Origin: Lyophyllum atratum
Taxonomy: Eukaryota > Basidiomycota > Agaricomycetes > Agaricales > Lyophyllaceae
DNA length: 64,000 nt
Direction: 5' to 3'
Assembly: GCA_014905825.1 (NCBI GenBank)
Contig: JACGCN010000041.1
Location: 358,511-422,510, forward strand
Shown here: positions 3,525 to 43,364 of the stretch, one piece after another
Layout of the letters: the number at the start of each line of letters is the position of its first letter
How positions within the stretch are numbered: position 1 is the first letter of the stretch
Program-made: the position numbers and the translations under genes
The notes under the pieces: model-generated
Database searches by the model: none
What the model was told of the DNA's origin: nothing
What the model saw: only the letters and a program-made list of their open reading frames with translations

Positions 3525-4042
3525 ACACAAGGTGCCCAGGACACTATTTTGATGAAGCAAAGCCTGAAAATATTGTGAAGGTGCTCTTTGTGAGAAACCA
3601 CTATGATATATGAACATATGATAGAGCAAAACTTGGATTTTGTTGAAAATCATAGTGGGAACAAATTCAGAATTTATTATCTAAAGAAATGTTAAAAAAC
3701 ATTCACAATATTTTCACGATATGATCAGTGAAGATTTTATAATATATTCACAATATAGAGAGGTATTTCAAACTATGTTGAAGATATGGTGAAAATATTC
3801 TGAATAGCTGACCATATTGTAAACATGTCATGAAATCTTCACTGATTATATTGTGAAAATATTGTGAAAATTTCTTGCATATAATTGAAAAATGAATTCT
3901 GGATTTGTTTACACTATGATTGTCAATGAAATACAAGATTTGCTCTATCATATGTTCACTTATCATAGTGGCTCCTCACAAAAAGCACCTTCACATCATT
4001 TTCAGACTGTTTTATCAAAATATCATCCTGGGCGCCTTGTGT
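3525..4042. mobile_element. Foldback MITE, copy 2
   Basis: Both termini are present: left acacaaggtgcccagg at 3525, right cctgggcgccttgtgt ending at 4042. The interior is a long AT-rich inverted repeat, about 75-80 percent similar by eye to copy 1 in the same order. A TA dinucleotide precedes the left end and follows the right end, so a TA target duplication is possible but not certain. It sits at the 3' end of the minus-strand gene to its right, whose coding frame stops making sense at the insertion. Confidence 0.8.
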
Positions 4043-9080: not shown

Positions 9081-9430
9081 GTGTCGTGACCCATGTCGGT
9101 CGGGTGCCGTCGGGCGGGGCTGCGTGACGTGGCATCGGGGCGGCCAGCAGGGTGGACCGGGCGCGCTCACAAGTCACAGGGGCGGATGGCCGTGTGTGTG
9201 GCCTCTGGCGGTCATGCTGGGGGTCATGGGGTCAGTGGTGGAGCGGAGGTGGGTGCTACGGCGCGGTTGCCTCCCCTGCTTTCCCTTCCCTTTTCATCAT
9301 CTTCGGGTATCGCGGGGGGGCTTGAGGAGTGTTGTGAGGTGTCCTGCGTGCTGTTGGGTGCGCACCAGCTGGCGGCACCAAGGGGGTGCAGCGGGGGGGG
9401 GGGGGGGTGGAGAGGGCGACAGTGACAGTG
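9060..9430. repeat. Second G/T-rich tract with G15 run
   Basis: Composition matches 7930-8370. A homopolymer of 15 G lies at 9393-9407, followed by more G-rich sequence, giving clear G-quadruplex potential. ORFs here are compositional artefacts. Confidence 0.6.
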
Positions 9431-9639
9431 TTGGTGGTTGAGGAACAGCCAACAAAGAAAATGGTGACGTCTCAACCATCATGTGATGGAGCGCACGGGT
9501 CCGTTGCCGAACATGATCTGTAGCACTTAGTAGTTGGTTTTGTAACAGCCCTATGGCCCAGTGGTTTGAGTTGTCAGATTGGTGTTGATTAGTAATCACC
9601 TCCCCGAGATCAAGTGTTCAACTGTCGACGTTGTTATTA

Positions 9640-9715
9640 TTTTGTTAGTACTACTACTACTACCAATAGTACTAGTACCACCAGTAATACTGGTAATGAC
9701 ATTGGTAGTCCTAAC
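9640..9715. repeat. TAC/TGG-type microsatellite
   Basis: Imperfect trinucleotide repeat (tactactactactacc, then agtactagtaccacc, then aatactggtaatgac). No coding support. Confidence 0.6.
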
Positions 9716-10119
9716 AGGCTGGTGCTGATGCCCCTGACCACCTACCCATGCCCGTCGAGTTTCTGCGGTCCATCAACTCTGGCAGCCTTCCTCCTGGAGA
9801 GCTAAAACTCAAGATTGGGTGCCTACGCAACCTGTCCCCATCTCAAGGTCTTTGCAACATGATTCTCACTCAGATGTCAGGTTGGGTGTTGGAATAGGGT
9901 CTAATCTATGACAGCATTTCTCGCACTTTAATCAGAATGAAGGTTTTTGGAGAAATTCAGTGCTCAGGTATCAGGTTTTTTTATGATTTTAGATTTTCAG
10001 TCGAGGTTTAGCATATTTTGCTTTAGGTTTAAAATTATCAGATTCAAGTTCAGTTTTGAGGCGTGTGGTTTACAACTGCGAGCTTTCTGGTTCAACGTTG
10101 GACGTGACTGTTGAAGTTC
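9716..10119. other. Stretch without genes, AGGTTT-rich to the right
   Basis: No credible ORF. From about 9955 the plus strand carries scattered aggtttag, cagattcaag and caggttt phrases that grade into the tandem repeat starting near 10120. Confidence 0.4.
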
Positions 10120-10290
10120 AAATCAAGTCAAGTTTAGGTTCAGTTTAACGTTAAATGAGCTCCAGGTTTAGTTTTAAGTCAAGTCAAGTTTAGGTTCAGT
10201 TTAACGTTAAATGAGCTCCAGGTTTAGTTTCAAGTCAAGTCAAGTTTAGGTTCAGTCTAATGTTACGTGCGCCTGAGGTTTAGTTTGTTT
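10120..10290. repeat. 56-bp tandem repeat, about 2.8 copies
   Basis: A unit starting tcaagtcaagtttaggttca and ending ccaggtttagttttaag repeats directly with a 56-bp period; the last copy is diverged. A sequence of related flavour but opposite orientation (aacctaaat, ctgaacctga) lies at 27603-27745. Confidence 0.75.
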
Positions 10291-10433
10291 AGTTTTTCAG
10301 TTCCGGGTTTGGTTTTTAATTCAAGTTCAGTTTTCTTGAAATAGGGAGGACTTCGAATGATCCGGCCCGGTTGATCCGGTTGAAGGCTGATCAACTTGTC
10401 CCGACTGCCCATAACATTGCTAGATCTCTTGTG

Positions 10434-12362
10434 ATGTCGCAGCCGCCGGTGTTGCCTGAAGCTGCTGCTGCTGAGCTTCTTGATGAATTCCGACAACGCT
10501 TCCATCGGTTCAGATCAAGCATAGTAGAAGCAGTCAACAATTCTGCTGACACAGTTGTTCTTTGGAGGCTTGGTGACGATTTGCAGCAATATGTTGGTCT
10601 GGTCAATGAAGTGATTTCTTTAACTAGTATTCTATCACTGGAACTCACATTTTTTGCAGTATGCATCAATATTTCCTCCTGAAGAACTGGCTCTGATCCA
10701 GCACAACTTGGCTATAATGCAGAATGACGTCCGACAACAATATGACCAGGCAACTAACGAGTCCCACCATGGGCAACCTGTAATAGTCGAAACAGTTCAC
10801 ACAGGACATCGGGGACGGCCACAAATTCATATCGACCCAGAATTTCTCCGATGGGCATATTCCATGCGCTCTACATCCAGCATTGCTCGATTCTTGGGTG
10901 TGGGCCGTAGACTTGTCCGTGATCACCTTCTCCAATATGGGATTGCTGAAGCAAGAGAGCAGCCATCTGTGCTCTCTGCCCAGTACATTGAGGAGAACAA
11001 TGACTTTCTAGACCCACAAGGTCAGGCTGTTCCCATCGACAATCCGCCTGAAGTTCCACAAGAGTTGGCCGTTCCCTCTCCAAACCTTGAGTCGACAACC
11101 CAGTCTGTCATTTCATCCTACACTGGTCCCCTCTCTAGCATTTCTGTTGAAGACCTAGACGCTCTTCTGCTCCATCTTCGACAACATTTCCGCCGGGCGG
11201 GTATCACCATGCTTGATGGCATGCTTCGCAGACTTGGCCATCGTGTACCACGAGAGCGAATAAAGCAGTCATTGATAAGGATTGATCCTGTGCACCGAGT
11301 CTTTCAGAGGATCAAAATTCGAAGACGTGTTTATAGTGTGCCAGGACCTAACTCTCTGTGGCATCATGACGGCCAGCATGGTACGTTTTATGTAGCATCA
11401 GCCATTAACTCATGAGCTGAAACAATATTCGCATGTAAAGGTTTGATTCGATGGGGTATAGTCATTCATGGCTTTATCGATGGCTATTCACGACTCATCA
11501 CCGCCCTACGAGCACACAACAACAACCTGGCTGACACTGTGTTAGGCTTATTCCTTCTTGCCTCTCAACTGTATGGAGTTCCATCCCGACTTCGTGGTGA
11601 TCACGGTGTTGAAAACCTTCGTGTTGCTGCATGGATGGAAACCAACCTTGGTGAACGTCGTGGGTCATACCTTTGGGGAAGGTGAACAGGGTACATGATG
11701 TCTTGCGCTTCTCAATGACTAACTATGTTCACAGGAGTGTACACAACGTCCGCATTGAACGGCTTTGGGTTGATGTAACTGCCCAAGTTGGTGCGACATG
11801 GGCGGAGCTGTTCACTCTCCTGGAAATCCGGCACGGTCTTGATATTAACAACCCTCAGCATATATGGCTGCTCCACTTCTTGTTCCTGGGCACTATCAAC
11901 CAGCAGCTAGACTTCTTCGCGCAATCATGGAATCAACACCGCATTCAGATTCGAGGCGGCCCTAACCGTTCCCCTGCGGATATGTTTGGCTTTGATATGA
12001 TTGTGCATGGCGTTCGGGGATATCAACTACCTCGTCTTGATGATAGCACCATGACGGAGGAGGAGTTGGAGGTCTTTGGGATGGACTGGGAGGGTCTTCG
12101 TGAAGACAATTTACTGCAGTCACGAGAAGCTAATAACCCAAGAAACGAGGATTCTGGATCGTGGCTGGGGCGGGTGGGCCCACCAGAGCATTTGAATGAG
12201 GTCCCCCTTCACGCACCTCAAGATGTCTTTACACCAGAAGAACTTCGATATATAGATCAAACATTGCTCCCTCGGGCTGGCGCAGTTCAAGATTTGGATG
12301 CCTCGATGCTGTGGACAGAAGGACTTGCCTTGGCTAAAAACATGTATCCAGATCTCTTCTAG
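10434..12362 (+). CDS. Integrase-core (DDE) protein, transposon-derived
   Basis: Four exons join in frame: 10434-10610, 10660-11380, 11441-11681, 11735-12362, separated by introns of 49, 60 and 53 nt with GT-AG ends. The N-terminal half is helical with a helix-turn-helix-like segment (SIARFLGVGRRLVRDHLL). The integrase core follows: first Asp in WHHDGQHG (11368-11370), FIDGYSR, second Asp in RGDHGVEN (11599-11601), Glu in NVRIERLWVDV (11757-11759). These match the DDE triad of retroviral-type integrase folds used by DNA-cutting transposases. The C-terminus is acidic. The frame has no stops, so it may be functional or recently active; a start upstream of 10434 is possible. No terminal repeats of its own were identified. 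Fungal genomes carry many such integrase-core genes of unknown mobility. Confidence 0.8.
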
Positions 12363-12576
12363 CTATTTACCGTTGCCCATGTTCTATAAAGCGGTGTGAA
12401 AAAGCAAAACAAAATTGTCTTTCCAGGTCTACACATATGGCAATAAGAAGTTATTTTAAGGAACAAGCAGAGAGAGAAATGGAGAGGGAAACATCATAGG
12501 TAAATGAGGGAGAAGTGTTTAAGTAAAGTAACCTCTGGTAGACGCCAATCATGGTTTGTCTAGGTATCTGTAACCT

Positions 12577-14582
12577 TTATAATGGATAGACTTCGTCCAA
12601 AAGCTGGAGCCTAAAGATATCGAGATTTGGGACACCTACAGGAATATGAAGTTTAGGATGTAAGGAGGCGTCATTGATGCGTGGCCCCATTTGAAGGTGT
12701 CGTGCAAACATTATAGTGTACACCCCACAATCGTATGTGTTATCTTGGAAAGGGACCTTGGATAATATCAGATCCTTATCCCATGGTATGTGAAGGTAGC
12801 TACCTCAAAATGCGGCAAGCATTCAAAGAGACTTAGATCGACGTTTAATTTGAATTTTTTGGATACCTTGGCAACGAATCCACGGACGCCCTAGTGGTAA
12901 GTTGTACTTAGAGAGATGACATATTCAGATATGGTTGCAGCTCACCTATATGATGGATGCATGGATGCTCTTTTGCCAAGTGGTATCATCAACGTTCTTG
13001 CGGTAATTTGAACGTAAGCTGTCAAGAACGTGAATGGTGTGCTTCTTCAAATCCACATGAGCCAAAACCCAATGCTTTTGTTTAAGATTGACTGGAATAA
13101 GGATGGTGTTAAGCGACTGAACCATCTTAGGAATCTAGAAAAATTTAGCATCGAGTTGAGGGTATGGCAGACGGAGATGCTACTTGCCTGGCCACTCTGC
13201 CACTTCCATGCCTGGTCCCATATTTTTGCATTTGTTGGTGGATTCTGAAGAAATTTGGTGTAAAAGAATGGAGAAAGGCAGAGAACAGAAGAGGGTGGTG
13301 GTGGACGTGATATAAAGTGTTCTAGGAGAGCGTCGTTGAGCCACATCTTGGGTGCCAGCAGCTTGAGGTCATCGCGCGTGAGATTTCCAAACTTCCAGCC
13401 TGCTGGTATATCACCCGCTCTCTGCGGTTTGAACACTGGTTACAAAATGTCGCATATTTATGAAATGAAGAAACTTACGTCTGCAAGGATATTCGTAACG
13501 CCCGCTGAGGGTGTTAAAAGCCACGACCGTATGGAAGCACATATGAGATGATGTTCGGCATCCAGAACGGTGCATAAGTGCAAGAGATTCACAAGATTAA
13601 GCCTCATATTGAGGATGACGCCTTGCGAAACCTCTGGTGCCCAAGTTTGGATTAAGCTCTCGAATCGTGCCCGAATTCCTCTACTGAGGATATTGGCAGA
13701 CTCCGATTGATTTTGCCAGATTTTAATTTCTTGGAAGCGAGCCAGGCTTCCCGTCGCAAGCTTGGACTGTATTGAACGCTCTGTGTCATTCAGACGATGG
13801 TCGAGCTGAGAGCTGTCAAGTAACAGTGCAGACTGTAGCCGGCAGCCCCGAAGCCAGTCATCGATTTCTCCGTGCAAAGCTAACATTTGCTCAATCAATG
13901 CAACGGGTAAGAGCGCTCCCGCAGTAATCCCAAGAGCATCCTTCTCAAGCGATGCAGTAGAAAAAAGTGACGGAGGAAGGTCCTGAGGCCCTTGGGGTAG
14001 TGGAGAGCCTGGAACAGGTACGCCAGGAATTTCACCGGTAATTTCACCGGTAACTGGGGAGCCTTTTGTGAGCATATCAGGAGTTTTGCTCTCTGTTACG
14101 GGCTGAGCAGCCATAGCGATGGTTTCCGTTTCAAGCTCCAGTGGGACGTCGGAAAGAGGCGAGAATAGAGCAGCACTAGTTGTAGCAACTGACTGGGGGA
14201 CTTGGGCAGGAACACTAAGGGCCTGGGTTTCGGGAGTTGCAGTAAGAGGCAAAGGAGGAATAGCCTGAGGCCATTCAATCGTCCGCAAGACCGGTGTTAT
14301 TCCGGCGTCTACATTTCTAGAAGGTACAAGTCATTTAAAGCAGAATAAGTAGGGCTAGAAGTTGTCATACTTCTGCTGCCTCTCCGCCTTTCGCAGATTT
14401 TCCAATCTACGCTTGTTTCTACGAAATTCCTTGCGCGATTCCGGACTAGCCGGCATCGGGTCAACTTGTGGCCATAAGAAACAGGGACAAGCTGACCTCA
14501 TGTTTGCCATTCTTTCACGGTCTCTGAGAGTACTGGAAGGTGTCATTTTACCGTTGACATTGACTTGCTTAGATTTAGCCAT
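12577..14582 (-). CDS. C48 (Ulp1-like) SUMO protease, possibly with premature stop
   Basis: Exons: 14582-14371 (start MAKSKQVNVN), 14316-13479, 13421-13188, 13134 onwards, then smaller exons to a TAA at 12577-12579. The first 350 residues are a basic then proline-rich and helical N-terminus of unknown function. The catalytic domain then shows all Ulp1 hallmarks: MWLNDALLEHFI and FFYTKFL, HWVLAHVD with the catalytic His (13072-13074), the Asp in HVLDS, the Gln in VPFQDN and the Cys in YDCGVYTIMF (12727-12729). Such enzymes mature SUMO or remove it from targets. One intron (13135-13187) has a GC donor (CAG|GCAAGT). At 12946-12948 an in-frame TAG precedes the next strong donor (gtgagc), so either splicing differs or the copy is inactivated before the catalytic Cys. 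It diverges from the dioxygenase gene at 17947. Confidence 0.7.
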
Positions 14583-14659
14583 GAACAACTCAGAGGGGGT
14601 TTGAAGATTTCAGAGGATGGTGGAAGAAAGGAGACGTCCCGCGAGTGTCTGACGACCCA

Positions 14660-14738
14660 CACAGCCACCTTGACGGCCCTCACAGCCACCTTGACGGCCT
14701 TCACAGCCACCTTGACGGCCGTCACAGCCACTGCGGCG
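14660..14738. repeat. 21-bp tandem repeat
   Basis: The unit cacagccaccttgacggcc plus 2 nt repeats at 14660, 14681, 14702 and, partly, 14723. It lies 80-150 bp upstream of the Ulp1-like start codon and so within its likely promoter or 5' UTR. Confidence 0.8.
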
Positions 14739-14870
14739 GCTTGGGAAATTACGACCGAAGCAACATCTTATACTCAAAAGGTATGTTCAACCAAGAGCTT
14801 GTATATTTCATGGGCTATAGAGTAGTATATAAGGTAACGAAAGGATTGAGCAAAAAGCTCTGTAGCAGGT

Positions 14871-14923
14871 ATGATGTCATGGGACCGCGCAATTCGTCGG
14901 AATGCGCGGCGACGTGATGTCAT
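14871..14923. promoter_or_regulatory. 53-bp palindromic CRE-type element, copy A
   Basis: Layout: ATGATGTCAT (14871-14880), gap, CCGCGCA (14885-14891), 11-nt core, TGCGCGG (14903-14909), gap, TGATGTCAT (14915-14923). The outer boxes resemble ATF/CREB-type bZIP sites (TGACGTCA with one change), and the inner arms can pair. Spacing is the same as in the copy at 17830-17881. It lies about 290 bp upstream of the Ulp1-like gene. Function is inferred, not shown. Confidence 0.6.
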
Positions 14924-15389
14924 AATTTTGCTGTTGCCGACTCAGAACACACCAGAAATCTACTTGAGTACGACAGATATATTAGAATGTAATTACTACA
15001 GGTTTTGTAAATTAGATGGCACCAACAGATGCTGCAGTTGATGATGTGAGTGGCGGCAGGGCCGGTCGACGTACATCGTGTTTGGGGGAATGAAATATCA
15101 GAAAATGAATGGATAACCAAAGCTTTGAGTACTTACGAGATTGTTACATCTCCTTGAATGTTGTTCGGAGCCTAGCCGTATGCACCGATGATCAGCGTTT
15201 TCGGGCGTCGATAGGCAAGAGGGAGCGGAGCGTCCACAACGATGATGCCAGCCGCTCGGCCTTTTCTCATGGATGTGTCCGAACTCCAGCATAGACGCAA
15301 ATGGCGCCGCAGGCGGTTCGTTACAAAATCTAGGCGTGAAGGGCGGGATTAAGTCAGTAAGCGATGATCGTGCGGTGCTAGCGCACGCA
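14924..15389. other. Stretch without genes
   Basis: Short shadow ORFs only. No RNA gene, terminal repeat or splice-linked coding sequence seen. Confidence 0.4.
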
Positions 15390-16985
15390 CAGTAGGGGTT
15401 CCCCCCACCAGGGGTCTGCCAATCCTTCCCTGGCTGTCTCGATTCCCTTTTGGAGGGCAGGAAGGAGCCGTGTCGTGATGTTGATCGAAATGATTGGAAA
15501 ATACATCTGTCGACGTAACGAGATGAATTAGTACAATCGAACAACTTAGGACGATGAGAAAACTCCATTGAACAATCACCTTGAGGGTCTAGGCATGGGG
15601 GCGGCGAGCGAACACACGGTCCCCCACCGACGGCGGTGCGAAAGGATGCACAAAGATGGTGGTAAAACTGTGGGTGAAGGGGCGTTGGGGAAGGGGCGAG
15701 AGCTCGTCAGCAAGCTGTGATTATGATCCCATCGACGCACCCGAAATGGCTCCAATAAGCCCCAGCCCACCTCCGAAAGCACGTCCACACCAGGCTGGTG
15801 GTCGTCCGAAAATTCATAAACACTGTCCGCCCAGCCATATACAGCATCACATGGAGCTGGCCGTATGCCGTTGTAGGTCGTACTCCCTCGCAGTAGTTCG
15901 AGCCCGTTCCAAACTTGCAGATGCAAGCGGTCGGACCTCAAAGGTCAAAATCCCCATCGCAGGGGTTGGGCCCCGCGTTGGGTATTCCGATGTCGGCTGT
16001 GCCTACTGTTTCGTCCCTCGAGGCAGACGCGAGCTGGTGAATGCCGAGGTTGTTCAACCATCTCACATCCCTCTTGAAGGGGAGGAGGGCGCTGCTTGAA
16101 AAGAAGGCATCATAATTAGTAAATGACGTGCGGGCAGGGCCTTATGCACGCACCTCAGCGGCTCCCCCCACCAGGGGTCTGCCGTCCCTTCTTCGCCGAC
16201 TCGCATCCGTGTTGGAGGGAAGGAGGGTGCCGTCGCGATGACTGAGCCCTAGATATCCGAATTGATCCTGTAAACATCAACGACACGATCCGTAAGACAG
16301 AAAGACAAGTTAAAACAAAAAGAAACTAAGTAAAACATACCAGGCCCTCTCACATCCCTCTTGGAGGGGAGGGGGCCGCCGATTCGTTGTTGATCGAATC
16401 CAAAAGGAAGTGGATCTGTAGACGTTCAGGAGACCGATTAGTATGCAAGAATCACTTGAAACAAAAAGAAAACACATTTGATAACTCACCTTGGATGCTC
16501 CTGTGCACGCTGGCGGTGGGCGGGCGAGATAACAGGCGAGATAACATGGCGGTGGGCGAGATAACACGGGGACTTAGCACTGCGAGAAATCCATCACATG
16601 ACTTATGTAATCTTTGGTCCAAACAACGCAGCCGTCCGTTGTTATCTCCCATCTCCACCACCACCACGACCGCCGCCACCACCACGACCGCCGCCACCAC
16701 CACACAAGACCATCGCGCCCACGGCTACGCCTTGTTGGCGTGGCCTACTTTCTCACCTCTACCACCGCTCGCCACACGTCAGGATCTTTCAAGGCCAGTT
16801 TAATGTTTTTTTCTTATGTTTTAGATTCTTTTCATCATACTAACGCGCCTCGTTGATGTTTACAGGCCGGTTTTTCGAATCCTACGGCTTAATACACCCC
16901 ACAGCGCCCTCCTCCCCTCCAAAAGGGATGTGAGACGGCGAGGGAAGGGATGGCAGACCCCTGGTGGGGGGAGCCGCCAAGGTGT
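15390..16985. repeat. Dispersed direct and inverted GC-rich repeats
   Basis: The phrase ccccccaccaggggtctgcc occurs directly at about 15400 and 16167 and inverted at about 16943, each time close to a ttggagggnaggaagg-type phrase. At 15895-16020 lies an inverted copy of the 154-bp unit that is tandem at 17175-17740. At 16660-16705 there is a CCACCACGACCGC microsatellite. Open frames (Pro/Arg/His rich) are artefacts of composition. The arrangement suggests nested or rearranged copies of one repeat family. Confidence 0.6.
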
Positions 16986-17174
16986 GTCCCCTAGGCCCTG
17001 CTCCACCGCTCACTACTGACCGTCACACTCTCTATTTCAGGTTATCTTTCGTTCAACCGCCACGCGACCCCCTCCTCCCCTCCAAAAGGGATGTGAGACG
17101 GCTAATCGCCCCCCCGCCAACCGCCAGCACCCGCCTTCGCGCCTCGTATGAGGGTCGAAAAGGTGGGCCCAGCC

Positions 17175-17740
17175 GCCATCGGAACACCCAATGCGGGGCC
17201 CATCCCCCGCGATGGGATTGGTGAAAATGCGAGGTCCAACCCCTCGCATCTTCACATTCCGATTACGCTCGAACCACCACCCTCCTGCCGCTCGCCGCTG
17301 CCTGGAGGGTCGACACGGAGGGCGCACGGACTTCGGAGAACACCAACGCGGGGCTGATCCCCTGCGTAGGTGGTCGTGAAGGTGCGGGGTCCGACCCCTC
17401 GCCTCTTCACGCTCTGATTCGGCTCAAAGAACCGCCCTCACTGGTTAGTGGCTGCCGCGAGGGACGAACGGCCAGGCGGACGGAATCAGAGGATGCGAAC
17501 GCGGGGCCTATGCCCTGCGTCGGCGTTCGTGAACATGCGGGGTCCGACCCCTCGCATCTCCACGTTTCGATCACGCTCGAACCACCGCCCTCTGCCGCTC
17601 ACCGCTGTCTTGAGGGTCGACACGGCGGACGCAGGGAGTACGGAAAACGCCAACGCGGGGCCGATCCCCTGCGTAGGGGTCTGTGAAGGTGCGGGGTCCG
17701 ACCCCTCGCCTCTTCACGTTCCCATTCGGCTCGAACTAAT
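17175..17740. repeat. 154-bp GC-rich tandem repeat, about 4 copies
   Basis: The anchor aacgcgggg recurs at 17190 (as aatgcgggg), 17345, 17498 and 17652, so the unit is 153-155 bp. Each unit contains two short hairpin-like pieces (gcggggcngatcccctgcg and gcggggtccgacccctcgc) and ends gctcgaacc. Copies differ by scattered substitutions. The array ends about 90 bp before regulatory element B. Confidence 0.75.
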
Positions 17741-17829
17741 TTTATATTACCTACATACGCGTAGTTATTATTTATCAATATAAAGAACGTTTAGACCGAG
17801 TTCGCGAGCTAAGAGGCAAACAGCCAAGG

Positions 17830-17881
17830 TGACGTCATAGGCCCGCGCATTTTACAGGATTGCGCGGGCAAGTGACGTCAT
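17830..17881. promoter_or_regulatory. 53-bp palindromic CRE-type element, copy B
   Basis: Perfect TGACGTCAT at 17830-17838 and 17873-17881 flank arms GCCCGCGCA (17841-17849) and TGCGCGGGC (17861-17869) around an 11-nt core. The architecture and spacing equal copy A while the core differs, which argues for selection on boxes and arms. It lies 66 bp upstream of the dioxygenase start codon, so it probably acts as its promoter element. Confidence 0.65.
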
Positions 17882-17946
17882 CGGTTCAACCGCGTCTTAT
17901 CCGTCCATATCATCCACAACGACAATAATCATCCTCTCTGACAATT

Positions 17947-20046
17947 ATGGCTTCACCAGACGGAATTAAGGCATACATGCAGACAACACCCGATGCCCAG
18001 TTCATTGTACCGGGTGGAACCTTGCTCTATGACGCACGCCGCGATGGCCGGTATCAATATTTCTACGAGGTCCTTTCTCACCCCCTGGTTGATCGGGATG
18101 TCTCCGGGCCGGGAAGGACCCTTGTCTACATCCAGGATACCAGAAAGGAAGTCCTGGAGGAGCAATGGGGTTTTGAAGACTCCCTAAAGGTCCCCCTTGG
18201 GCCAGATTCTCATCTGGAAGGGTTAGGCGCGTAGTCTCTCACCCTGTTACCCTTTACAATTTTTAACACGTACGGTCCAGGTCTGTTTGAGATGTTGGAT
18301 GGAGATATTATATTTGGGAGGAATCTTCAAGGCCCGCACAAAGAGGGCGAAGGTCCCGACCCCGAGAATGACGTCATTCTGGCCTGGTGTTGCGACGGGT
18401 ACGTGTTCTCTAACTTTGTTATTTATTTCTACTCATAGAGTCTTATATTTAGGTGTGCTGTCCTATCCCCGGAAATGCTTGCGGACCTAAAGATGGTCCA
18501 AGAGATTGTCTTGGGTGATAGGGATTCCCGTACCCCTGATAAGCCTACAAGAACCCGTGACGGATATCAAGGCGGCGTAGCCTATGAACGTCAAGAAATC
18601 ACCGGCGTGAAAGACACTCGCTGCTATTCTGTAGGCCCCACCCACCAAAGAGCTCGGAACATGACCTCGCCTACCGCCAGTGGCAAGCTCCCAGACGGAG
18701 GCATGACAGAAGACATAGAAAAGAAGAAATTCGTGGTCACGGTAAGTTTAATCCTTCAGGATGCTGCCGGTACAAACTGATCATTTGAACAGACCTCAGC
18801 TGCAGTCGGTGTTGCGTCTATGAATCAATTCGCACCGCTAGAATTTCGGAAACAGCTCAAGCAACACGCGGAGCTCACAAACATGCCAAGGATTGGTAGT
18901 ACCAGCAACGTTTATTTTCCAGCGATACAGTTGAATATTGCTCCAGCTGTGGCAGGAGATGAAAGCCTTAGTAAGTGAATTTACCCATTTCATGGACCAA
19001 CTCTTATTCTCCTGTATCCAGGGAAATCATTGGAGGGTATGGGGGGATTTGGTATAGACCACTTTGACAAGGATGATGATGAAGGAGGTCTCAGCACCAT
19101 GGTCTCCAATTCAGACGTTCCAGAAGAGCAAGCTGGTCAACTGGGGTATGAATATGGCCGGTTTCATCTTTTGGCCTTTGGATTTTACATCAAGCTCACT
19201 CCGTTCCGAATCATGAGTTTCTCGGGACTCTTCAAGCACGGAGGATCCCCTCCTTTGTCACCTGCGGGTATCGCTCCGGTCCCTTGGGCTTATCGTTTCA
19301 TGATTGTTCTCTACCCGCCAGAATCTATGCTATCTGGCGCCGGAAAACAAATCATTGGCCTTGCTGCCTTACCTAAAGGAAAGCTGTTTCAGTTGCCCCC
19401 GGAGATGACAAGTCTTACGTAGATTTCTATTTACGTGCTTGTTCATAATTCTGACTCTGAACTAGCTCTGAATCTGCCGCTTCTCGAGGTATCACCAACG
19501 AGGCTAACTGGGCCAACGACGGCATAGGTCTTACTACCGATGAAAGTCTTTTTCACTTCTACATCAGATCGCTCCTCCAAGTCAACACCTACTTTCTTCA
19601 CCAATTACCTGTTCATATGCAGGCTCGCCTGGATCCGGACGCATTCCTTGCGGCATTCACTATGAAGGATACAACGTCGGACACCAGAGTCAACGCAGGT
19701 ACGTGGGAAACCGCCCCCAATGGTTCTGGCTCTGCTTTCTGGGAACCTGAGGAAGGTGAATCTACACTTGTGGATTTGCCGGAAGGAGAAATTCCTGTCG
19801 CTCCTCTTCGTGAGGTGCATCTGGAGGAATGGCAGAGTCATACTGCTGCCAGTCGCGGCTTTGATGCCATCTCAAAGAAATCGAGACGACAGCCTTCACC
19901 AGGGCGGAGGCCAGCCAGTACGCCGAAAGGCCGTGCAAAATTCAAAAGGTATTTATGCTTGTTCTTGGTCAAAGCATACTCTAATTCTTTGTATTTCTTA
20001 GCCAAAAGAAAAGCTGGAGACACCGCTGAAAGCAGTAAAGCCAAAC
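17947..20046 (+). CDS. TET/JBP-family 2OG-Fe(II) dioxygenase
   Basis: Exons: 17947 to about 18228, about 18281-18398, 18453-18741, 18793-18970, 19022-19418, 19466-19948, 20009-20046. The core has the double-stranded beta-helix dioxygenase motifs: metal ligands in GIDHFDKDDDEGG (HxD, His 19060-19062, Asp 19066-19068), the distal His in LFKHGGSPP (19237-19239) and the 2-oxoglutarate Arg in YRFMIVLYPP (19294-19296). Length, motif spacing and host group fit the fungal TET/JBP enzymes, which oxidise methylated pyrimidines in DNA and are expanded in basidiomycetes, often near transposons. The C-terminus is basic (KAGDTAESSKAKR), suggesting nuclear import or DNA contact. The first intron needs a GC donor (about 18229). 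The exon chain continues in frame beyond 20046, so the protein may be longer (see next entries). Confidence 0.78.
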
Positions 20047-20102
20047 GTGAGCTGCCTTCTTGGCTCTAGTCTATTCAGATCTCATTTGAATGCCAACTAT
20101 AG

Positions 20103-20600
20103 GCTTTTGGGCAAAGAATAAAGGGCCCATATCCATCAACGATCATCCAATGGCAGCGGCGTCGAATCTTCAAGTCCATCTTTTTGAGAAAGAGCTAGCA
20201 AAAGCTAAACTAAGGCGTATGCTTTTTTATTTGAACTACTGGTTCTTACCCTTATACAATTATGTTCAGCTTCAACTTCCTTCCATCAGCCTATTCGATC
20301 CACCACCTGGTACTTCGATGACCTCAGGTACGTGGCTGTTTTACCGCCTAGGCCTATAATTCATTTCTGATACATCTCATTCGAACTCCAGAAGCACCTT
20401 CACAAGACCTTGATCCTCACAACAATACGGCATCCGGTACGTTTTCCCCTTCGTATTTTGAAGGTTTGTTCACCAAATTGCTTCAAAAAGCATCCCCGTC
20501 TTCGATCACCTCGGGTACTGTGCTGTCATTGAAGAAGCTACAACGGTTGAAAGAAAACTTCCTTGGAGTGGACATCAGCCAAGACAAAGGAAAAGGCATT
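20103..20600 (+). CDS. Small exons linking dioxygenase and acidic linker
   Basis: After an intron at 20047-20102 the frame resumes as RFWAKNKGPISIN and HLFEKELAKAKL, then short exons follow (LPSISLFDPPPG; EAPSQDLDPHNN; LFTKLLQKASPS and LSLKKLQRLKENF), each bounded by gtacgt-like donors and AG acceptors. Several donors fall after the first base of a codon, which keeps the phase constant. The text is protein-like but of no known domain. I infer it is a linker of one long transcript that starts at 17947; a separate small gene cannot be excluded. Exact borders are uncertain. Confidence 0.4.
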
Positions 20601-20629
20601 TGATAATTATTCTACTTCTTCTACAGTTG

Positions 20630-21212
20630 CTAAATCAGGATTATCAGCTAGAGAAGTGGTCGAAAATAAGGATAGCGATATTGACCCAGACGATAGTGAA
20701 GACGGTACGGCACTTTACCGGCTAATAAGGTGGATAAAGCTGATTGATCTCGTAATAGAGTACATCTCATCGGACCAGGGACCCCCGGCTCCGATAGAGG
20801 TCATGGAAGATGTATGGACACATCGTGGATCTTCTTTAGATGATAGTGAAGACGGTATGGCACTTTACCCGCTAACGAGGTGGATAAAGCTGATAGATCT
20901 CTTGATAGAGTACCTCTCATCAGACAAGGGAACCCCGGCTCTGATAGAGGTTGATATGGAAGATGTATCGACACATGGCGGATCTTCTTTGGATGATAGT
21001 GAAGACGGTATGGCACTTTACATGCTAACAAGGTGGATAAAGCTAATTGATCTCTTAATAGAGTACGTCCCATCAGACCAGGGAACCCCGGCTCCCATAG
21101 ATGTCGATATGGAAGATATATCGACACATCGTGGATCTCCTCTAGATGAACAAATGAGCAACGTCAGCCCAGGCTCAGAAAATCACACTCTTGCTCAGAT
21201 GGAAGATTAGTG
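20630..21212 (+). CDS. Repeat-bearing acidic segment, three exon-intron-like units
   Basis: Three 144-150-bp units repeat directly. Each contains DDSEDG, then GMALYPLTRWIKLIDLLIE, then EYLSSDKGTPALIEVDMEDV. The middle piece is a perfect intron by signals: gtatgg donor, ctaac branch site, atag acceptor, 54 nt. Because 54 is a multiple of three and contains no stop, the unit is open whether spliced or not. If spliced, the product is a very acidic, disordered repeat; if retained, each repeat gains a hydrophobic helix. The ORF ends at a TAG at 21208-21210, but a donor overlapping it (gtgcgt at 21211) could splice to 21243 in frame. Confidence 0.5.
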
Positions 21213-21242
21213 CGTACATCACATGTTTAAAACTTGTCCAGT

Positions 21243-21500
21243 GAGCTTAAAGTATGGATCCCCCTATGTAGTGAAGATACGGAGGACGATCATACACCAG
21301 GTATCGGCGGCGTTGATCTCACGAGCGACAGTGAAGCAGATACGGATGAGGACCTGGATTCTTCTTATACGCTACCCAGACGTGGACGTGGTGTTGATCT
21401 CACAAGTGAGATCTCAGATGCGAGCAGTGAAGCAGGCAGCATCGATAGCATTGAAGATGATTTTATCACTTCAGAGATTGAGAAGTTGTCTCCCAACAAA
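21243..21500 (+). CDS. Acidic disordered segment
   Basis: The frame reads LKVWIPLCSEDTEDDH, then two GVDLTS motifs in Asp/Ser-rich sequence and EIEKLSPNK. A donor at 21501 (gtaacg) can splice to an acceptor ending near 21562 (ataatag), giving SPNK-TPPLERFLSSLG and joining the next domain in frame. GVDLTS-like hydrophobic-acidic motifs resemble SUMO-interacting motifs; that reading is inference. Confidence 0.45.
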
Positions 21501-21562
21501 AGTAACGTCTACATTTTTTTCAGAAGGATTTTTGCCCCAGCGTCTGATTTGGCCTTATAATA

Positions 21563-23375
21563 GCGCCTCCGCTTGAGCGGTTTCTGTCAAGTCTTGGAAT
21601 GCCAGCCCTTCTAGATGCTATTGATGATTTTACCGCTGGCCTGGTCGCTCTCAGGACATCCAAACCTGAAACCAGCGCTGCAGAAATGGCTTTCTCTGTT
21701 GACACAGCAACCCTGGCACGTCTGAAAAACACCGCAGAAGACTCCGAGTCCGCCGCCTCTCCAGCCACGGCAATTCAGATCTCTCGAATGTGGAAGGATA
21801 TCCAAGGGCTAAATCGTTACACTCAACTCTCTGGTGCTGAAAAGCGTATAACCCACAGCAGCATCATCATCGCTTCACTGCAACCTTACATTTGGCTACA
21901 TGGTCTACTTGACGAAGCCATTTCGCTTGTGCAGAGTCACGTTGAAAATCCTAATTGGATTCTCCGTCTAGTTCGGCTACTCGACACTATTCATAACACC
22001 AAACGTTCTCCCGCCGCTCGTTCTTGGGATTTCCAGCCATCAACTTTGATTCCAGATCTGGAGGCTGAGCCATTTTTCTACACACCGCCTCGGTTTGACC
22101 CTCGACCAGATATGATCCGCAGCTTCACCATCAACGCCGTCAGGGCTATCGCGGAGGAGTGGCTTGGCTTTCCGAAGGATTCGAATGCCCTTCAAAAGTT
22201 TGAGCTAGCCCAAACTCTTCAGACGCATATGTCCTCCTCTGTCTATCTGTTGGACTGCGTATGGGACATGTTTGCAGATCCTATCTCTGTATTGACCGAT
22301 CGGTCCCATCGTCGTGGAGGACCACGAACTCTACTCGAAGCCACCAAGGTTTTCAGCAATGCTGTATCCACGCATCCATTGACGGACCGTTCATCACCTG
22401 AATCAGCCAGCCTCGATCACCTCACCGCCCTTACGCGCGTCTTTTTCAAGGAAAAGATGATTCCCGTTAAACGCTCAAGGATGCCAAATTCTTCTACATC
22501 TCAAGCTCCACCACTTCCTCCTCTTATCTCTCCAGATATTGGCATGAAGAACTTCCTCCTCTATCTTCGGCGACTTCTACCCATCGTGCATGACGGGATC
22601 GAGGCTCATAAAAATTCTCCAGACTGGGCTTTACAGAAGCTAGCAACCGACCCCGATTACTTCATGCCGTTCCGCGATGTTGCTCCAACACGTTCTCACG
22701 CAATTGCCACTCTATTCGCTGATAAAGATTGGCTCCTCACGCCAGAAGGTTTTGGCAGCGCCCTCATACATCGTGCCTTTTTCTATGGGTCACCATTCTC
22801 CCTCAATCACTCCGGAAAATTCAACAGCATCCAAGAGTGGGACACCATCTATGCAGATGCTCTTGCCTCAAACCAGGTATCAGACAAGAAGCAGTCCTAC
22901 TTTGTTCGGAACAACGTCTACGGCTCAGCATCAAAACATCGCCGTTTGGAGCATTTACCCAAACTTTGGGAAGCACGTACGGAATGGCCAGCATTCATCG
23001 AAAAACACGGCGAGCCCACCTTTCTACAATTATTTGATTTTCTTTCCGTCCCTCATCGTTTCTATGGTGTGGGTCCGTTGACAGCGATGCTAATCGCTGG
23101 GGATCTTACGGTGGCTGGTGTTGCCTCAATGCCCACAGCAGAGGAGCTTGGCGGCGTTATTTATGCTGTTAAGAGAGGGGCTTTCAAGGGTCTTCGACGA
23201 CTTGGCCTGATTGGAGAATCAGGCTACTAAGGAAGAAGTTGTCCAGGCCTTTGTTTCCCTTAGACGGGTACCTCACCAATCAGCTGACCGACTCAGAAAG
23301 AGACGCCGTGAGGTATACCGTCTTCACACCAGAACACGGTCTCTGCAAACATACTCGCCTTTAGATATAGACTAG
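21563..23375 (+). CDS. Uncharacterised 540-aa protein or domain, glycosylase-like segment
   Basis: One long exon, mainly alpha-helical, runs from PPLERFLSSLGMPALL to GLIGESGY (stop at 23228-23230). Near its end LFDFLSVPHRFYGVGPLTAMLIAGDL resembles the helix-hairpin-helix GVGP segment of DNA glycosylase-type folds and of the alpha-glutamyl/putrescinyl-thymine pyrophosphorylase families reported in phages and basidiomycetes; this is weak similarity by eye. Beyond the stop, a shifted frame encodes EEVVQAFVSLRRVPHQSADRL and a basic tail to a TAG at 23373-23375, so one base may have been gained near 23226 and the true C-terminus may be there. It may be the C-terminal part of the dioxygenase gene or a separate gene. 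A methionine at 21599 is an alternative start. Confidence 0.5.
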
Positions 23376-23531
23376 CCCGCCCTTACTTGTAGTCGATAGG
23401 CTGCATAAAATCGATAAGTTTTGGTTGTAATAAATGTGAAGCATGGCAGGAATAGTCTATAGGGTATGCTATCCAGAACGGATGGGATATATTGAGCGGG
23501 GTATCGTAGCCGTAGCTAAACCAAAAATTAG

Positions 23532-26500
23532 TTAAATTATTGAGGGGTTTCCTATGGCGCTTAAAAGCTGCACCAGGAGCCAATGTTCAAATGCCTGAAA
23601 GAATGTGGTTGCTTCTCCCAGACTGTGATAATTCCCCGCAAGCCAAGTCAAGTAACTTGCCGGAAAGCGCACGGTCTGAAAGCAGGTTCGAAAACAGATA
23701 GTTCCCGTCTGAGCCATCTGAGCGCGAGCAGTGTGCATGAAATATTGTATGTCGGTATCCTCAACTGCATATAGCTAATCAGATAGTATGAGCGAAGCGA
23801 GAAAGGCATTACGGATGGCACATACCAGAATTGGCCTCTGATTTGCCATATTCAGCATTTGTGAGCCAGTTGCAGCCCAGACCAACATACGGCTGCGAAA
23901 TGCTGGGCTGTCAATGCGACCCAAATCAACAGCACGACTGAAAGTCGACTTGATCTCATCAAACAATCCTGGGCAAGGAATGCCTGAGCCCTTGAGGAAA
24001 TCAATGACGAGAGATCGGTATGTGATGGAGTTGTCCCCAACTGCCGCGCGCAATCGAGCCAGTTCACGCTCCACTTCAACATGCTTTAACTGAGAGGCAA
24101 GCCTCCAAATCCTGGTAGCCAGTGATTTGAGACATACCGCAGAGGCTGAGAAACACCTCTGGCCCCCCTTCAAAACATCGGAGAACCTTTTATACCGTAA
24201 GCGCGCGGATAAAGATAGACAGAAAAAATGCACCTCAGTAAAACGGAAGCCATTCCGACAAGGAAGGTCAAAACCTTCCGCAAAGGCCTTCCACTCAGGA
24301 TGATGGAATATGTCAGCCCCAAGAGTTGCCCGGTATAGCATATCGACAGCAAGAGACTCATGAGTGCTGGCGTCACGATTGACATATGCTGAAACCTATT
24401 CGATGGAAGGTAAGAAATAGATACGGAGAGATTGTAGGCAAAGAGACATAACCTGTGAATCGTGGTAAGCCGCAAAATGGGCTTGAAGTTCAATGCTAGT
24501 ACGAGGATCACCTTCAGGACCCAGATCCTTCCAATCTAGAAGGAGTTTTCGCAGCTCTCCAAACCACTCGCCAACAAACGCAGGAGTGAGGCACCCAAAG
24601 TCAAAGTTGTAGACGATGAAGAGGGTCACAGCGGGGGATAGAAGTTCTGGGGCCTGGCCTCGCACATAAAGCAGGGCACAAACTGCCCCAAACCTCCTCA
24701 TCTGCGCCAGCCGAGAAGGTGAGGCACCGAAGGAGGTCATGCACTTGAGAGTGCAGAAACCGTTCTGCCGCTCAACAAAATACTGGGAGCGACTGGTGAC
24801 AAATCTCTGGAATAAAGTTGACAGCACTTCGTTCTCAATCCCCGTCCCAAAGGAAGCATGAGTATCGGTTTCTCTGGCACAAACTTCGAGTCAGGATCAC
24901 ACACACGCTTGAAAGCAAAAACACCCACACGTTGAAATGCCGGCTCGATGATAAGAGGAGGGTAAAGTCACCATTCCGTGCAGCCTCGTCAATGAGGTCC
25001 CCAAATTTGCTAGCAGCATCATCAAGGGTTTCTCCAGTCACGGTCAATAAAGGGGGTTCGGCCCCTGCAGCCTCTTCATACACAAGAGTCGGAAGGTTGT
25101 CCATGGAATATTTTCCCTCGTATGTCGGAGTAGGAGACACCCAGGGGTGATCTGGATCCCATATAGATGTAGGCAGGGAGTTTACTCCGAGTGTAGCCAG
25201 AGACGCCTCAAGAGGGATTGATCTGTTATTCCGATTCGAGCCCAAAGATGGCTCCAAAAATGTCATTTTATTTTCGAATTTTCAACGCTATGTGCAGAAC
25301 TTACATCGAGGATAGCCGTCCGCCCACTGGAGCTGCTACTGATTGAGGGCTATATATATATCGGGTTAGGGACACACGCTAAGGAAAATGCATTGTGACC
25401 TACCGATGGAGGTGGAGCATTGCCTTGCTCATCTACGTCCTCTTCATCACCAGTACATTCACACCACAAGGAGCTTGGATGGTCTGGTCCAAATTCATTG
25501 TCCAGAGGAAACAGATGATTGAATTTGGCGGTTAGACACGTATGATAGTGACCGTCTTCCAGGTGCGATAGAGGGCTCCGAGCAACGGCTATCACAGACA
25601 ATGTCTTAGCATCAAGCCCTGAGTTGGTCTTAAAGAAAGCTTACCAAGATGGATTATGAAACGCCCACTAGAATCAATGGTCTTTTCGTTTACAAAATTC
25701 CGTCGGTCGCAGGCAAGGTCCTCAAGAGTAAGCTCCTCAGTGACCCGGTAGGGGAGGAGGCGAATTTGGCCATCTTTGCGAGGAATTCCTCGGTTGCGCA
25801 GCCCCAAGAGCGTCAGATTGTGAGGAGCTACTGCTCCTTGTGGGATCGATAAAAAACGGTAATGCAATGGCGAATTCACCATCTGTGTTGTGATGGAACT
25901 GAGGACTGTGGACACCTTGGTGTTGAGAGGTAGATTGAGATCATATAGCAAGGAATGATCTTGAAGTGCTCTGCAGAAGGCGTCGCCTGCGATATGGAAG
26001 AAAAATCGCTCAACGCTCTCCCCAGGCTCCTATTCAAGACAGTTTCTGTTTAAGCCTTAATTATGTTACTTGTGATAAGGAACTCACCGATGGCCCATAC
26101 AGTCGAATTTGGATGCGGATGTCATCTGGGTTTTCGGGGACCAAGCAGTCTTCAATCATTGGCTTAGCTTTGTTGCGAAGCCTGGGCGCTGAAGTAGCAG
26201 GTCCCCTGACTGGACCCTGACCACGACCTCGGCGGCGTACAAGTTGTTGTGTACGAGGCAGAGTATTTGCGGCTGAGGTAAGGCGGGATCGATTTGCTTG
26301 TTGAGCAGAGGATGAACCTGCCATAGGTGTGGCAAGTGAAGAAAACCCCAAAGCGGGCTGAAACGAGCTGGCAAGCGGTGCCGGCAATGCTGGAAGTGCA
26401 CGAGCGCTGGAATAAACTGCCTCAATTGGGAGGGACCGTGGAGGTGGAGCTGGAGGAGCCGGAAGAGCTGAGAGAGCTGGCATGCCGGAATTTGTTGCCT

Positions 26501-26704
26501 GTGTTGAGGATGGAAACTGATCTGACGGCGGGGGCTGACTTTGAGACGATCCTATTGCCACATAAAAGTTAGCAAGACCAATGTGGCAGTATTGAAAAAT
26601 AGCCTACCTCCTTGTGCAGGCTGGGAGGCCGCATTCTGATTTTGCGTCAGCATAAATTGCTGGAATTGAAATTGTTGGAATTGTCTGAACGTCTCTTCGT
26701 TCAT
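23532..26704 (-). CDS. HECT-like E3 ubiquitin ligase
   Basis: Starts MNEETFRQFQQFQF at 26704; the first intron is 26552-26607 and many more short introns follow. The N-terminus is Gln-rich, then Pro/Ala-rich and basic (VRRRGRGQGPVRG). The middle contains EPGESVERFFFH and LLGLRNRGIPRKDG. The C-terminal half resembles a HECT domain: RFGAVCALLYVRGQ and LSPAVTLFIVYNFDF match the HECT N-lobe pattern, and the end has a C-lobe-like ICFRTCFQTVRFPASYL with the candidate catalytic Cys, then WLLVQLLSAIG. HECT enzymes form a thioester with ubiquitin and pass it to substrates. It is convergent with the dioxygenase/540-aa gene, about 150-300 bp from its end. The HECT call rests on motif look only; several internal exon joins are not proven. 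Confidence 0.55.
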
Positions 26705-27602
26705 ATTCTATGCCACAAGCAGCGCACAGAATTCAGGCTACCAGAATAATACAGACCGGAAAAAAATTAACTCACGGAGATAAAAGAGAGTTGTCCTTGG
26801 TCAGATATGTTGACAAACAAGTGTAAGTGCTAGAGACAGAGTCACGATAGAGACAAAAGCTGCCAATATCGGTCAAGGTAGTTAGATGTAGAAGGAAAAA
26901 ACAAGGCGACACGATCCTTACAGAGTGGTGTATTAACGGGTGTCGGTGCCCGTGTAGTCAAAATAGGAGCAGAACGATCCAAGCTGTAGCGACAGTGAAA
27001 ATAGCAGAAAGGAGAAGGGAGAATGAGAATGTTGAAAGTCTGCACATCGATAGGGCCTCTTTTATGCTGGGACGGTTGGAAAAAAGGCACGCGACAATAA
27101 AGTTTAGTTCAATGCTTAGCCTCGCTAGCACATGTGCAAAACAGCTGGGGAAAATTTTCCACATCGCAATGAAAATTACGGTCAAGCGAAGCAGCAGAGG
27201 CAGCCACAAATGACCCAATGAGGAAGATTGAGGCGCTCATCTCACGCCACTAGATTTAAGCATATTTGCAAGACTTCTAGCCGATATAAGAGTCGTCCCA
27301 GGGAGGCGCAGCAAAAGCCACGGGAGTGATTAGTTTTCCTCATATAACGGCCAAGGTCTCAAGAGGCAACTGTTACAGAGAGCTTTCAACAGCTTGCCAG
27401 TCAATGCAAATGTAGCAGAGCCAGAAGGCTGAGGATTGGACCCAACCGCTTGTTTGACCTGAGGCGAAGAACCCAAGAAGAACCCAGACAATAAATCACA
27501 ATCAATAAATATATATGAACCCCGGGAGTAGGGCGCGGACTTGGACAAAAATGGCAACAGCCTGCTGGGGCAGATACGACCCCAACCTGGAAGCGAAATG
27601 TG
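26705..27602. other. Stretch without a convincing gene
   Basis: Only short frames, for example minus-strand 27330-27557 (75 codons, no motif). Probably promoter of the HECT-like gene on the left and repeat-derived DNA on the right. Confidence 0.4.
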
Positions 27603-27745
27603 ATCAAACTAAACCTAAATCAGAATAATTGAAACTTCACCCCAGGCACCTCGACCTGAACCTGATCAAACCAAACCTAAATCAAAATAATTGAAACTCC
27701 GCCCAGGCGCCTCGACCTGAACCTGAAGCCCGAAACCTCGACCCA
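27603..27745. repeat. About 62-bp tandem repeat, two copies
   Basis: The block tcaaactaaacctaaatcag...ctcgacctgaacctga repeats once with few changes, followed by a partial copy (cctgaagcccgaaacctcgac). On the minus strand it reads aggttcaggtcgaggt and tttaggtttag, similar in style to the plus strand near 9955-10290. Confidence 0.7.
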
Positions 27746-27870
27746 AATAAAGGGCGATAAATAATGTCATACTAATCGGTGGCGATCATGATGGAGACAT
27801 CATCATGATTCCGTGAATCTCTCTTACACCAACATCATCATCAGATTTCGCTTTTCAACTTCGCCGCCGC

Positions 27871-28124
27871 CAATTTTCTGTTAATTTGCGTTAACGATCA
27901 ACAAGTCACAGGGACAGTCAGCAAAATATGTTGGCATTGACCTCTGTATTCCCATTTTTGCCCATGGCCAGCTGTACGTTGCGCTTTCACGTGCAACATC
28001 CAGCCGTCGCATACAAATTCTCCTTCGCGACACTGATGTTTCTCTCAGCATACAAATTCTCCTTGGTGACACTGATGTTTCTCTCACGAAAAACATAGTT
28101 TATCCTGAGGTCCTCTTAGACTAG
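27871..28124 (+). pseudogene. Helitron/PIF1-type helicase C-terminal relic
   Basis: After a one-base slip near 27885 the frame reads [10 protein letters not shown], then VGIDL and [15 protein letters not shown], the terminal helicase motifs of PIF1-like proteins as found in Helitron Rep/Hel proteins. A 39-bp segment encoding [13 protein letters not shown] is duplicated in tandem (about 28008-28085). The stop is at 28122-28124. Everything upstream of the last motifs is absent, so this is a truncated relic, perhaps of a Helitron. Confidence 0.8.
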
Positions 28125-28265
28125 ATGTATGATGTTGTGTCGCATTACCTCTCCATCCTAAGTAATGATGACTGTAATAAATAAATGATGAAATGTTCCA
28201 AATTGTTGTCACAACTGATTGATAATAATTCTCACTATACCTCCAATCCCTCCGTCACTTCAACC

Positions 28266-28791
28266 ATGAGTGGCTCCATTACGATTTCTGGCATTGCCGT
28301 TTTGGAAACCTGCCGCGCCCTGGATGCTCAATCAAAGCCAAAATCTCTCACATTCGACACACCTCTATTCTTCAATCATGGTTGTCAGTCATTGGCGTCT
28401 TTGCGCTACTACAATAACAAGGGCCTGATTTTACCAGAGATGTTCATCATTTTACTATTGACGTTGATAAAGTCACATTCCTAGGCCGTGCACCTATTGC
28501 TCCAAAACCCTCTGATAACACAGGGAAGCAACAAGGTACAGTACATCCATTCCGCTTCCAATGACAGACATAGTCACAGTGTAACTTCCACTTCTAGGCT
28601 CTCCGTCTAAACCAGGCCTCAAGTTTAGTTACGGCAGTCCTATGCCTACTACCCCAAGCCCCAGTATCCCGACAAAACGACCGGAGCCAGAAGCATCTAC
28701 GTCCTCCACATCCACTTCCCCTAGCCCTAGCTCCAATGTCCCAAAAAGAGCCAGAACAGATACAAGGGCCTCAAGTTCTCAGAAGCCTTAG
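28266..28791 (+). CDS. Hypothetical protein, possibly transposon-associated
   Basis: Three exons fit in frame: 28266-28380, 28422-28535, 28598-28791. The product starts MSGSITISGIAVLETC, contains FHFTIDVDKVTF-like text (DVHHFTIDVDKVTFLGR) and ends in a Pro/Ser/Thr-rich basic tail with a likely nuclear signal (VPKRARTD). No domain recognised. The first part has alternating hydrophobic residues, suggesting beta strands. It directly follows the helicase relic, so it may be a cargo or accessory gene of the same element; that link is inference. Introns of 41 and 62 nt have weak donors. Confidence 0.4.
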
Positions 28792-34327: not shown

Positions 34328-34569
34328 TAAGGAAAGTAAATTAAGATCGGTGTATACACAATGGCAATTTCGACCATATGAGATGTCGCCTGATGTCGCG
34401 GTACCTTGAAGTTTAGAGGCCGGCTCCGAGATAGTGACGCAGAGAGAGCAATGACAAATCAGTCTTACTCATACATTTTATCTGTAATCAATTTGCAATT
34501 ATAAAAAGGTCGATCGGTTTCTCGGTCATCCACCCACTTTTCCATCAACTTACAGCCGTTCAACTTACA

Positions 34570-42044: not shown

Positions 42045-42059
42045 CCATATACATAGAAC

Positions 42060-43350: not shown

Positions 43351-43364
43351 TATGGTTTTCACAT

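Follow-up and report, generated by a model that had tools for sequence, protein, structure and literature searches.

IS3EU DNA transposons carrying TET genes have been described from seven species of rust fungi (Pucciniales) and from Tuber indicum, and the TET carriers named for Agaricomycotina are, as far as the same source goes, Kyakuja, Zisupton, EnSpm, Plavaka and Helitron2 (Kojima 2025, PMC12730594). The words Ulp1, HECT, protease, ubiquitin and SUMO are absent from the main text of that paper. A literature search found no work, judged by title or the start of the abstract, on TET, Ulp1 or HECT genes combined in a transposon. Here we describe a stretch of 64,000 nucleotides from the mushroom Lyophyllum atratum (the window; C88:358511-422510 in an assembly of 64.76 Mb). 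A preliminary description of this DNA had placed a candidate DNA-modification module at 12577..26704, consisting of a Ulp1-like protease, a TET/JBP dioxygenase, an unknown domain of 540 aa and a HECT-like ligase, next to an integrase-core gene. This 14-kb block is the inside of one DNA transposon and not a free-standing host module. In our view it probably represents cargo carried by an IS3EU-type element, with the predicted enzyme roles discussed below.

The closest described systems each share part of this arrangement. The rust and Tuber elements have, like the window transposon, IS3EU-type ends, a 6-bp target-site duplication and a dioxygenase gene between the transposase and an oppositely oriented second gene (PMC12730594). 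In the rust elements, however, the second gene encodes an alpha-kinase and the ends read TAYGG..CCRTA, whereas the window transposon has a HECT-like gene and TATGA ends. As far as that source goes, the mushroom host, the separate C48 protease and the 540-aa domain belong to the window transposon only, and its dioxygenase differs in having HxD and in being matched by no Tet_JBP hidden Markov model (HMM). KDZ and other TET carriers of Agaricomycetes are likewise mushroom transposons with a dioxygenase passenger (PMC12730594), and a relative of the set of dioxygenase, 540-aa domain and protease lies near a KDZ fragment elsewhere in the genome (contigs C64 and C63). These carriers differ in the superfamily of their transposase and in their AG-type enzymes, which did not align with the window dioxygenase in a profile comparison that used thin profiles and no positive control. 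Ginger1 elements with Ulp1 or OTU domains also combine an integrase-type DNA transposon with a C48 protease, but carry that protease as a C-terminal transposase domain, whereas the window has a gene of its own for it, next to those for the dioxygenase and the HECT-like protein (PMC2836005); the published duplication of Ginger1 is 4 bp, against 6 bp here. Plant and animal Mutator-like elements resemble the window in having a ULP-type protease as a transposon gene but use a MULE transposase, and the source mentions no dioxygenase or HECT-like partner (PMC2836005). What is new, then, is the host group for the combination of a TET-like gene with IS3EU (as far as PMC12730594 goes), the gene set, and apparently the type of dioxygenase.

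Extent, copies and insertion sites of the transposon

The transposon and its boundary features lie at the following positions of the window.

9901..9906: target-site duplication CTAATC, left
9907..27771 (17,865 bp), no strand assigned: whole DNA transposon, probably IS3EU-type, with a collinear copy on contig C69, inverted ends, 6-bp duplication and an empty-site counterpart
9907..9930, plus strand: left terminal inverted repeat, TATGACAGCATTTCTCGCACTTTA, common to eight short derivatives
10115..10286: left subterminal tandem repeats, 56-bp unit, three copies
27601..27726: right subterminal tandem repeats, 62-bp unit, two copies
27748..27771, minus strand: right terminal inverted repeat, TATGACATTATTTATCGCCCTTTA (read on the minus strand), common to eight short derivatives
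27772..27777: target-site duplication CTAATC, right

A second whole copy was found on contig C69, with a length of 18,510 bp against 17,865 bp in the window. The two are 98.5% identical over 17,815 aligned bases, and the similarity spans window positions 9906 to 27771 and ends on both sides. Exons of all five genes are 98-100% identical to their C69 relatives, in mirror-imaged order. The termini read TATGACA..TGTCATA, with an inverted match at 16 of 20 bases, and both full copies are flanked by a 6-bp duplication of their own, CTAATC twice in the window and GAACAC twice on C69.

Each insertion site has a counterpart without the transposon. Joining the window flanks after removal of one CTAATC gives a sequence that matches two uninterrupted relatives (C119 and C111) at 73%, with no gap where the flanks meet. 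The joined C69 flanks gave one match across the joint, to C87:41446-41968 at 93% (query 373-900, joint at 450); the matched lengths of 528 and 523 bases imply small gaps, whose placement is not visible in the output. Further matches from this search keep a fixed offset between C69 and C87 on each side, 375,229 and 393,844 respectively, and the difference of 18,615 is near the length of the transposon. These data show a discrete element that occupies two unrelated sites, for both of which an empty version exists. We rejected the idea that the second copy is simply an allele of the first, since the flanks and duplications differ and an empty version of the C69 site is present as well. Two haplotypes are probably represented in the assembly, because conventional HECT genes occur as pairs of like matches in a genome-wide HECT search and because one insertion site is also found uninterrupted. 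The sequence interrupted in the window (9307-9906 and 27778-28670) was read by eye as a Helitron (PIF1-like) helicase.

A total of eight short deleted derivatives carry the ends of the transposon. Their left ends are 81-85% alike over 112-115 bases in seven of the eight and fall into two pieces in the eighth, and their right ends are 84-87% alike over 80-84 bases. Five of them, 631-665 bp long, have perfect 6-bp duplications, and none was found in the other three. All retain in addition an internal stretch that is 88-92% alike (element 4742-5018), which hints at a reason for its retention, or at shared ancestry. This stretch lies near 21-bp repeats.

The coordinates given in the preliminary description proved exact, as 12577 is the end of the protease stop codon and 26704 the first base of the HECT-like model, and the repeat-rich edges it reported correspond to repeats near both edges of the block. 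Its idea of an epigenetic or mobile-element module holds insofar as the genes move as one transposon and are under protein-level constraint; they do not form a host module, and the integrase gene is the transposon's own transposase. The enzyme types, with C48 confirmed, would suit chromatin regulation by a host module beside an unrelated integrase gene. Such a module is nevertheless extremely unlikely, since all genes including the integrase lie within one unit with inverted ends and target duplication that was copied whole to C69, and the C69 site matches a locus without the transposon; the mapped ends and the second insertion rule it out.

Superfamily placement and the encoded proteins

The coding regions inside the transposon are listed below. 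The gene models were built from sequence without transcript evidence.

10434..12362, plus strand: transposase with integrase core, 582 aa, four exons (10434-10592, 10660-11380, 11441-11681, 11735-12362)
12577..14582, minus strand: Ulp1/C48-type protease, six exons, one in-frame stop in the window copy
17947..19932, plus strand: putative 2-oxoglutarate- and Fe(II)-dependent (2OG-Fe(II)), TET/JBP-like dioxygenase; the first six exons of the model give at least 579 aa, with an H-x-D, H, R pattern
20551..21207, plus strand: coding region, probably a linker, containing a 51-codon unit three times in tandem (open frame, 153-bp repeat), splicing uncertain
21548..23230, plus strand: 540-aa domain of unknown fold, downstream of a dioxygenase exon at six of seven loci, ratio of non-synonymous to synonymous differences (pN/pS) 0.11
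23532..26704, minus strand: HECT-like gene, ten modelled exons, frameshifted in the window copy, open (894 aa) on C69

The transposase matches Pfam PF24764 (rva_4) at 1.4e-65 and rve at 7.8e-5, and its reading frame is open in both copies. It shows the features of an integrase/IS3-like DDE transposase, with the DDE residues assigned by eye. Published features of IS3EU/GingerRoot, as far as the source goes, are TA..TA ends and usually a 6-bp duplication, and the duplication lengths given there are 4 bp for Ginger1, 4-5 bp for Ginger2 and about 4, 15 or 25 bp for IS481EU. The window transposon has TA..TA inverted termini and a 6-bp duplication, and it probably belongs to IS3EU, which the ends, the duplication length and the integrase core fit. 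That it belongs instead to Ginger, IS481EU or an undescribed superfamily of integrase type is very unlikely: its ends TATGA..TCATA do differ from the TAYGG..CCRTA of the rust TET-carrying IS3EU, and the placement is built on ends, duplication and integrase core, but the TA..TA ends and 6-bp duplication are the published IS3EU/GingerRoot traits and the lengths of Ginger1, Ginger2 and IS481EU differ.

The protease of the C69 copy matches Pfam PF02902 (Peptidase_C48) at 5.8e-22 with 79.0 bits (cut-off 20.7). The window model contains an in-frame stop that the open C69 frame lacks. Between protease and dioxygenase, the spacer (window 15954-17101) has short matches of 75-100%, in both orientations, to the spacer between the same genes at C64 (10333-11464) and C63, and may be a dispersed repeat.

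Part of the dioxygenase-like region is annotated as protein P0002. The model is open in the window, and on C69 the frame is shifted in exon 6. A pattern of H-x-D, H and R, in the order expected of 2OG-Fe(II) oxygenases, is invariant in alignments of four, three and five relatives, one of the five being from Termitomyces. The first motif reads HFD, HMD, HMD, HID and HAD in five relatives, and HxE was not found. Protein database searches returned one, two and four matches, all from Lyophyllum except the one Termitomyces protein; each search scored 8000 candidates sharing most words within a limited length range, and the counts are lower bounds. Enzymes of the PE type of TET/JBP have HxE for HxD and were recognised only by structure-based comparison (HHpred E 1.4; Kojima 2025, PMC12730594). 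The window dioxygenase thus appears to fit neither the AG type, by profile, nor the PE type, by its HxD. It may work like a TET/JBP enzyme, a suggestion drawn from its motifs that does not extend to membership of the family.

The 540-aa domain, an open exon in the window that is split across two frames on C69, has no Pfam match at E<=1, in keeping with the unknown domain of that size in the preliminary description. At six of the seven dioxygenase loci it follows the dioxygenase exon in the same orientation, at a distance of 1.6-6.9 kb, and it is probably the C-terminal part of the dioxygenase gene. Between the two, three 51-codon repeats are arrayed head to tail at 20688-21149.

Two HECT-like relatives, 38% identical to each other, share WAATGS followed by FRTC near the C-terminus. 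This arrangement may correspond to that of HECT C-lobes, in which the catalytic Cys lies in a TCF-type motif near the C-terminus, and it is the order of these motifs that suggests the HECT label. Checked by HMM, the C48 and integrase-core calls of the preliminary description were thus borne out, and its TET/JBP and HECT calls found no HMM match and continue as motif-based candidates, the former on the invariant H-x-D, H, R pattern.

Recurrence of the gene set and constraint on its coding regions

Relatives of the five genes were searched for throughout the Lyophyllum atratum assembly, which gives lower bounds. The whole gene set is present at two loci, the two copies on C88 and C69. At C75 and C72 a transposase is accompanied by a convergent HECT-like gene, with no match to the protease or the dioxygenase in the 17 kb read. 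Each of the four HECT-like loci detected has a transposase locus at a distance of 2.3-12.7 kb, and four of the seven transposase loci have a HECT-like partner. The dioxygenase, 540-aa domain and protease occur together at C64, whereas C63 keeps the 540-aa domain and protease but lacks the segment holding the catalytic exon of the dioxygenase. Among the matches listed, no partner is near the protease relatives at C13, C2 and C67 or near the transposase relatives at C66, C24 and C102. The recurrence proposed earlier as a check gives a mixed result in this genome: the whole set is found at two loci and parts of it at C75, C72, C64 and C63, and the other homologues are partnerless among the matches listed. 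At C64 the protease is downstream of the 540-aa domain on the same strand, whereas in the window it is divergently upstream of the dioxygenase: the linkage recurs, and the gene order does not.

C64 and C63 share a block of about 18 kb at 98-99%, within which C64 has matches to CxC4 (1.2e-44) and, below the curated cut-off, to a KDZ domain (4e-5). No transposon ends or duplication were found at these two loci, so a KDZ element carrying their genes is at present a suggestion. At C75 and C72 no ends or duplication were found either; one end candidate at C72 has 15 of 20 terminal bases, with a duplication that is imperfect by one base. None of at least 109 PF18758 (KDZ transposase) matches is on C88, in a listing that also misses the weak match at C64, and KDZ as the carrier of the window block was rejected, no KDZ match being listed on C88. 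Genome-wide there are at least 18 Tet_JBP (AG-like) and at least 109 KDZ exon matches, none of those listed being on C88.

Constraint was measured as raw pN/pS, because Biopython dN/dS was saturated for seven of eight pairs. For the near copies, codons were kept only in stretches at least 75% identical, dropping the frameshifted parts. Between the window and C69, pN/pS is 0.03 for the HECT-like gene, 0.09 for the transposase, 0.11 for the 540-aa domain, 0.26 for the dioxygenase and 0.38 for the protease (uncorrected p of 2e-15, 2e-6, 3e-5, 0.017 and 0.027, respectively). Against diverged relatives it ranges from 0.27 to 0.61 in ten of ten comparisons, with synonymous sites mostly saturated. 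The five coding regions, including the four cargo regions, are under protein-level constraint, which argues that the genes serve the transposon.

Predicted enzyme roles and proposed mechanism

Several results weigh against reading the block as transposon cargo with these enzyme roles. Pfam Tet_JBP gave no match to the window dioxygenase-like protein (E<=1), and nothing relevant was found in four of four relatives (E<=10); among at least 18 places listed by a genome-wide Tet_JBP search, none is on C88 or C69. PDB sequence searches with this protein gave nothing relevant. Comparing its profile with those of five Tet_JBP proteins from this genome, with thin profiles and without a positive control, gave no match, and comparisons of unrelated pairs likewise gave none. 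Neither of two HECT-like relatives has a Pfam match (E<=10), a PDB match is lacking as well, and in a genome-wide HECT search C88, C69 and C72 do not appear, and C75 is listed solely at 1.417 Mb. Overall, Pfam, PHROGs and PDB sequence searches returned no relevant match for the dioxygenase, 540-aa and HECT-like proteins. The dioxygenase and protease are not needed for the core, because related loci of transposase and HECT-like gene lack both. Each copy has broken cargo (protease and HECT-like gene in the window, dioxygenase frame and 540-aa frame on C69), and for dioxygenase and protease the constraint is of no more than marginal significance (uncorrected p of 0.017 and 0.027).

Two alternatives draw on these points. 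The dioxygenase-like protein might be a 2OG-Fe(II) enzyme acting on a target other than DNA bases (protein, histone or RNA), or an inactive relative; the missing Tet_JBP match, the lack of a profile match to five Tet_JBP relatives in this genome (thin profiles, no positive control) and the HxE of the published divergent PE type, against HxD here, speak for it. We regard this as somewhat unlikely, as the gene has the same kind of genomic carrier as published TET genes and H-x-D, H and R are invariant in all five aligned relatives, one of them from Termitomyces. It is less likely still that the cargo genes are captured passengers, useless to the transposon and decaying. Either copy has damage in two of its four cargo regions, and the C75 and C72 relatives manage without dioxygenase and protease, but pN/pS between the copies is below 0.4 in all five coding regions and is 0.27-0.61 in all ten comparisons with more distant relatives, for which most synonymous sites are saturated. 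Damage in both copies argues that neither is fully intact now.

Under the preferred reading of cargo serving an IS3EU-type element, the transposon is probably an anti-silencing one, with enzyme functions predicted from sequence. The transposase would cut and paste the element. The dioxygenase would oxidise modified bases (5-methylcytosine, perhaps N6-methyladenine) on element DNA and so undo silencing, and the Ulp1-type protease would strip SUMO from silencing or repair factors. The HECT-like protein, a partner of the transposase in the related element, would ubiquitinate host or element proteins. TET passengers of transposons have been read as anti-silencing factors (Kojima 2025, PMC12730594), and a role for Ulp1- and ubiquitin-type enzymes in transposition and repair has been suggested (Bao et al. 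2010, PMC2836005), as far as these sources go. More tentatively, the element could be modular, with a core of transposase and HECT-like gene plus a detachable kit of a new-subtype HxD dioxygenase with the 540-aa domain and a SUMO protease; an unrelated KDZ transposon in the same genome might use the same kit, and demethylation, deSUMOylation and ubiquitination might jointly disarm the host.

Outside the transposon, a 0.5-kb sequence is present twice in the window (838-1338 and 3525-4042), the copies matching directly and inverted at 82-84%. Ordinary core genes, read by eye, occupy 34438-45678 (ribosomal protein L10, NADH dehydrogenase 51-kDa subunit, acetolactate synthase).

If the preferred reading is true, it would extend dioxygenase passengers to mushroom IS3EU elements. 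It would also add a dioxygenase subtype that current HMMs miss, joined in one mobile unit with SUMO and ubiquitin enzymes. As the site of one copy is empty on the apparent other haplotype, the effects of these genes on methylation, chromatin and mobility become a question that can be put within a single strain.

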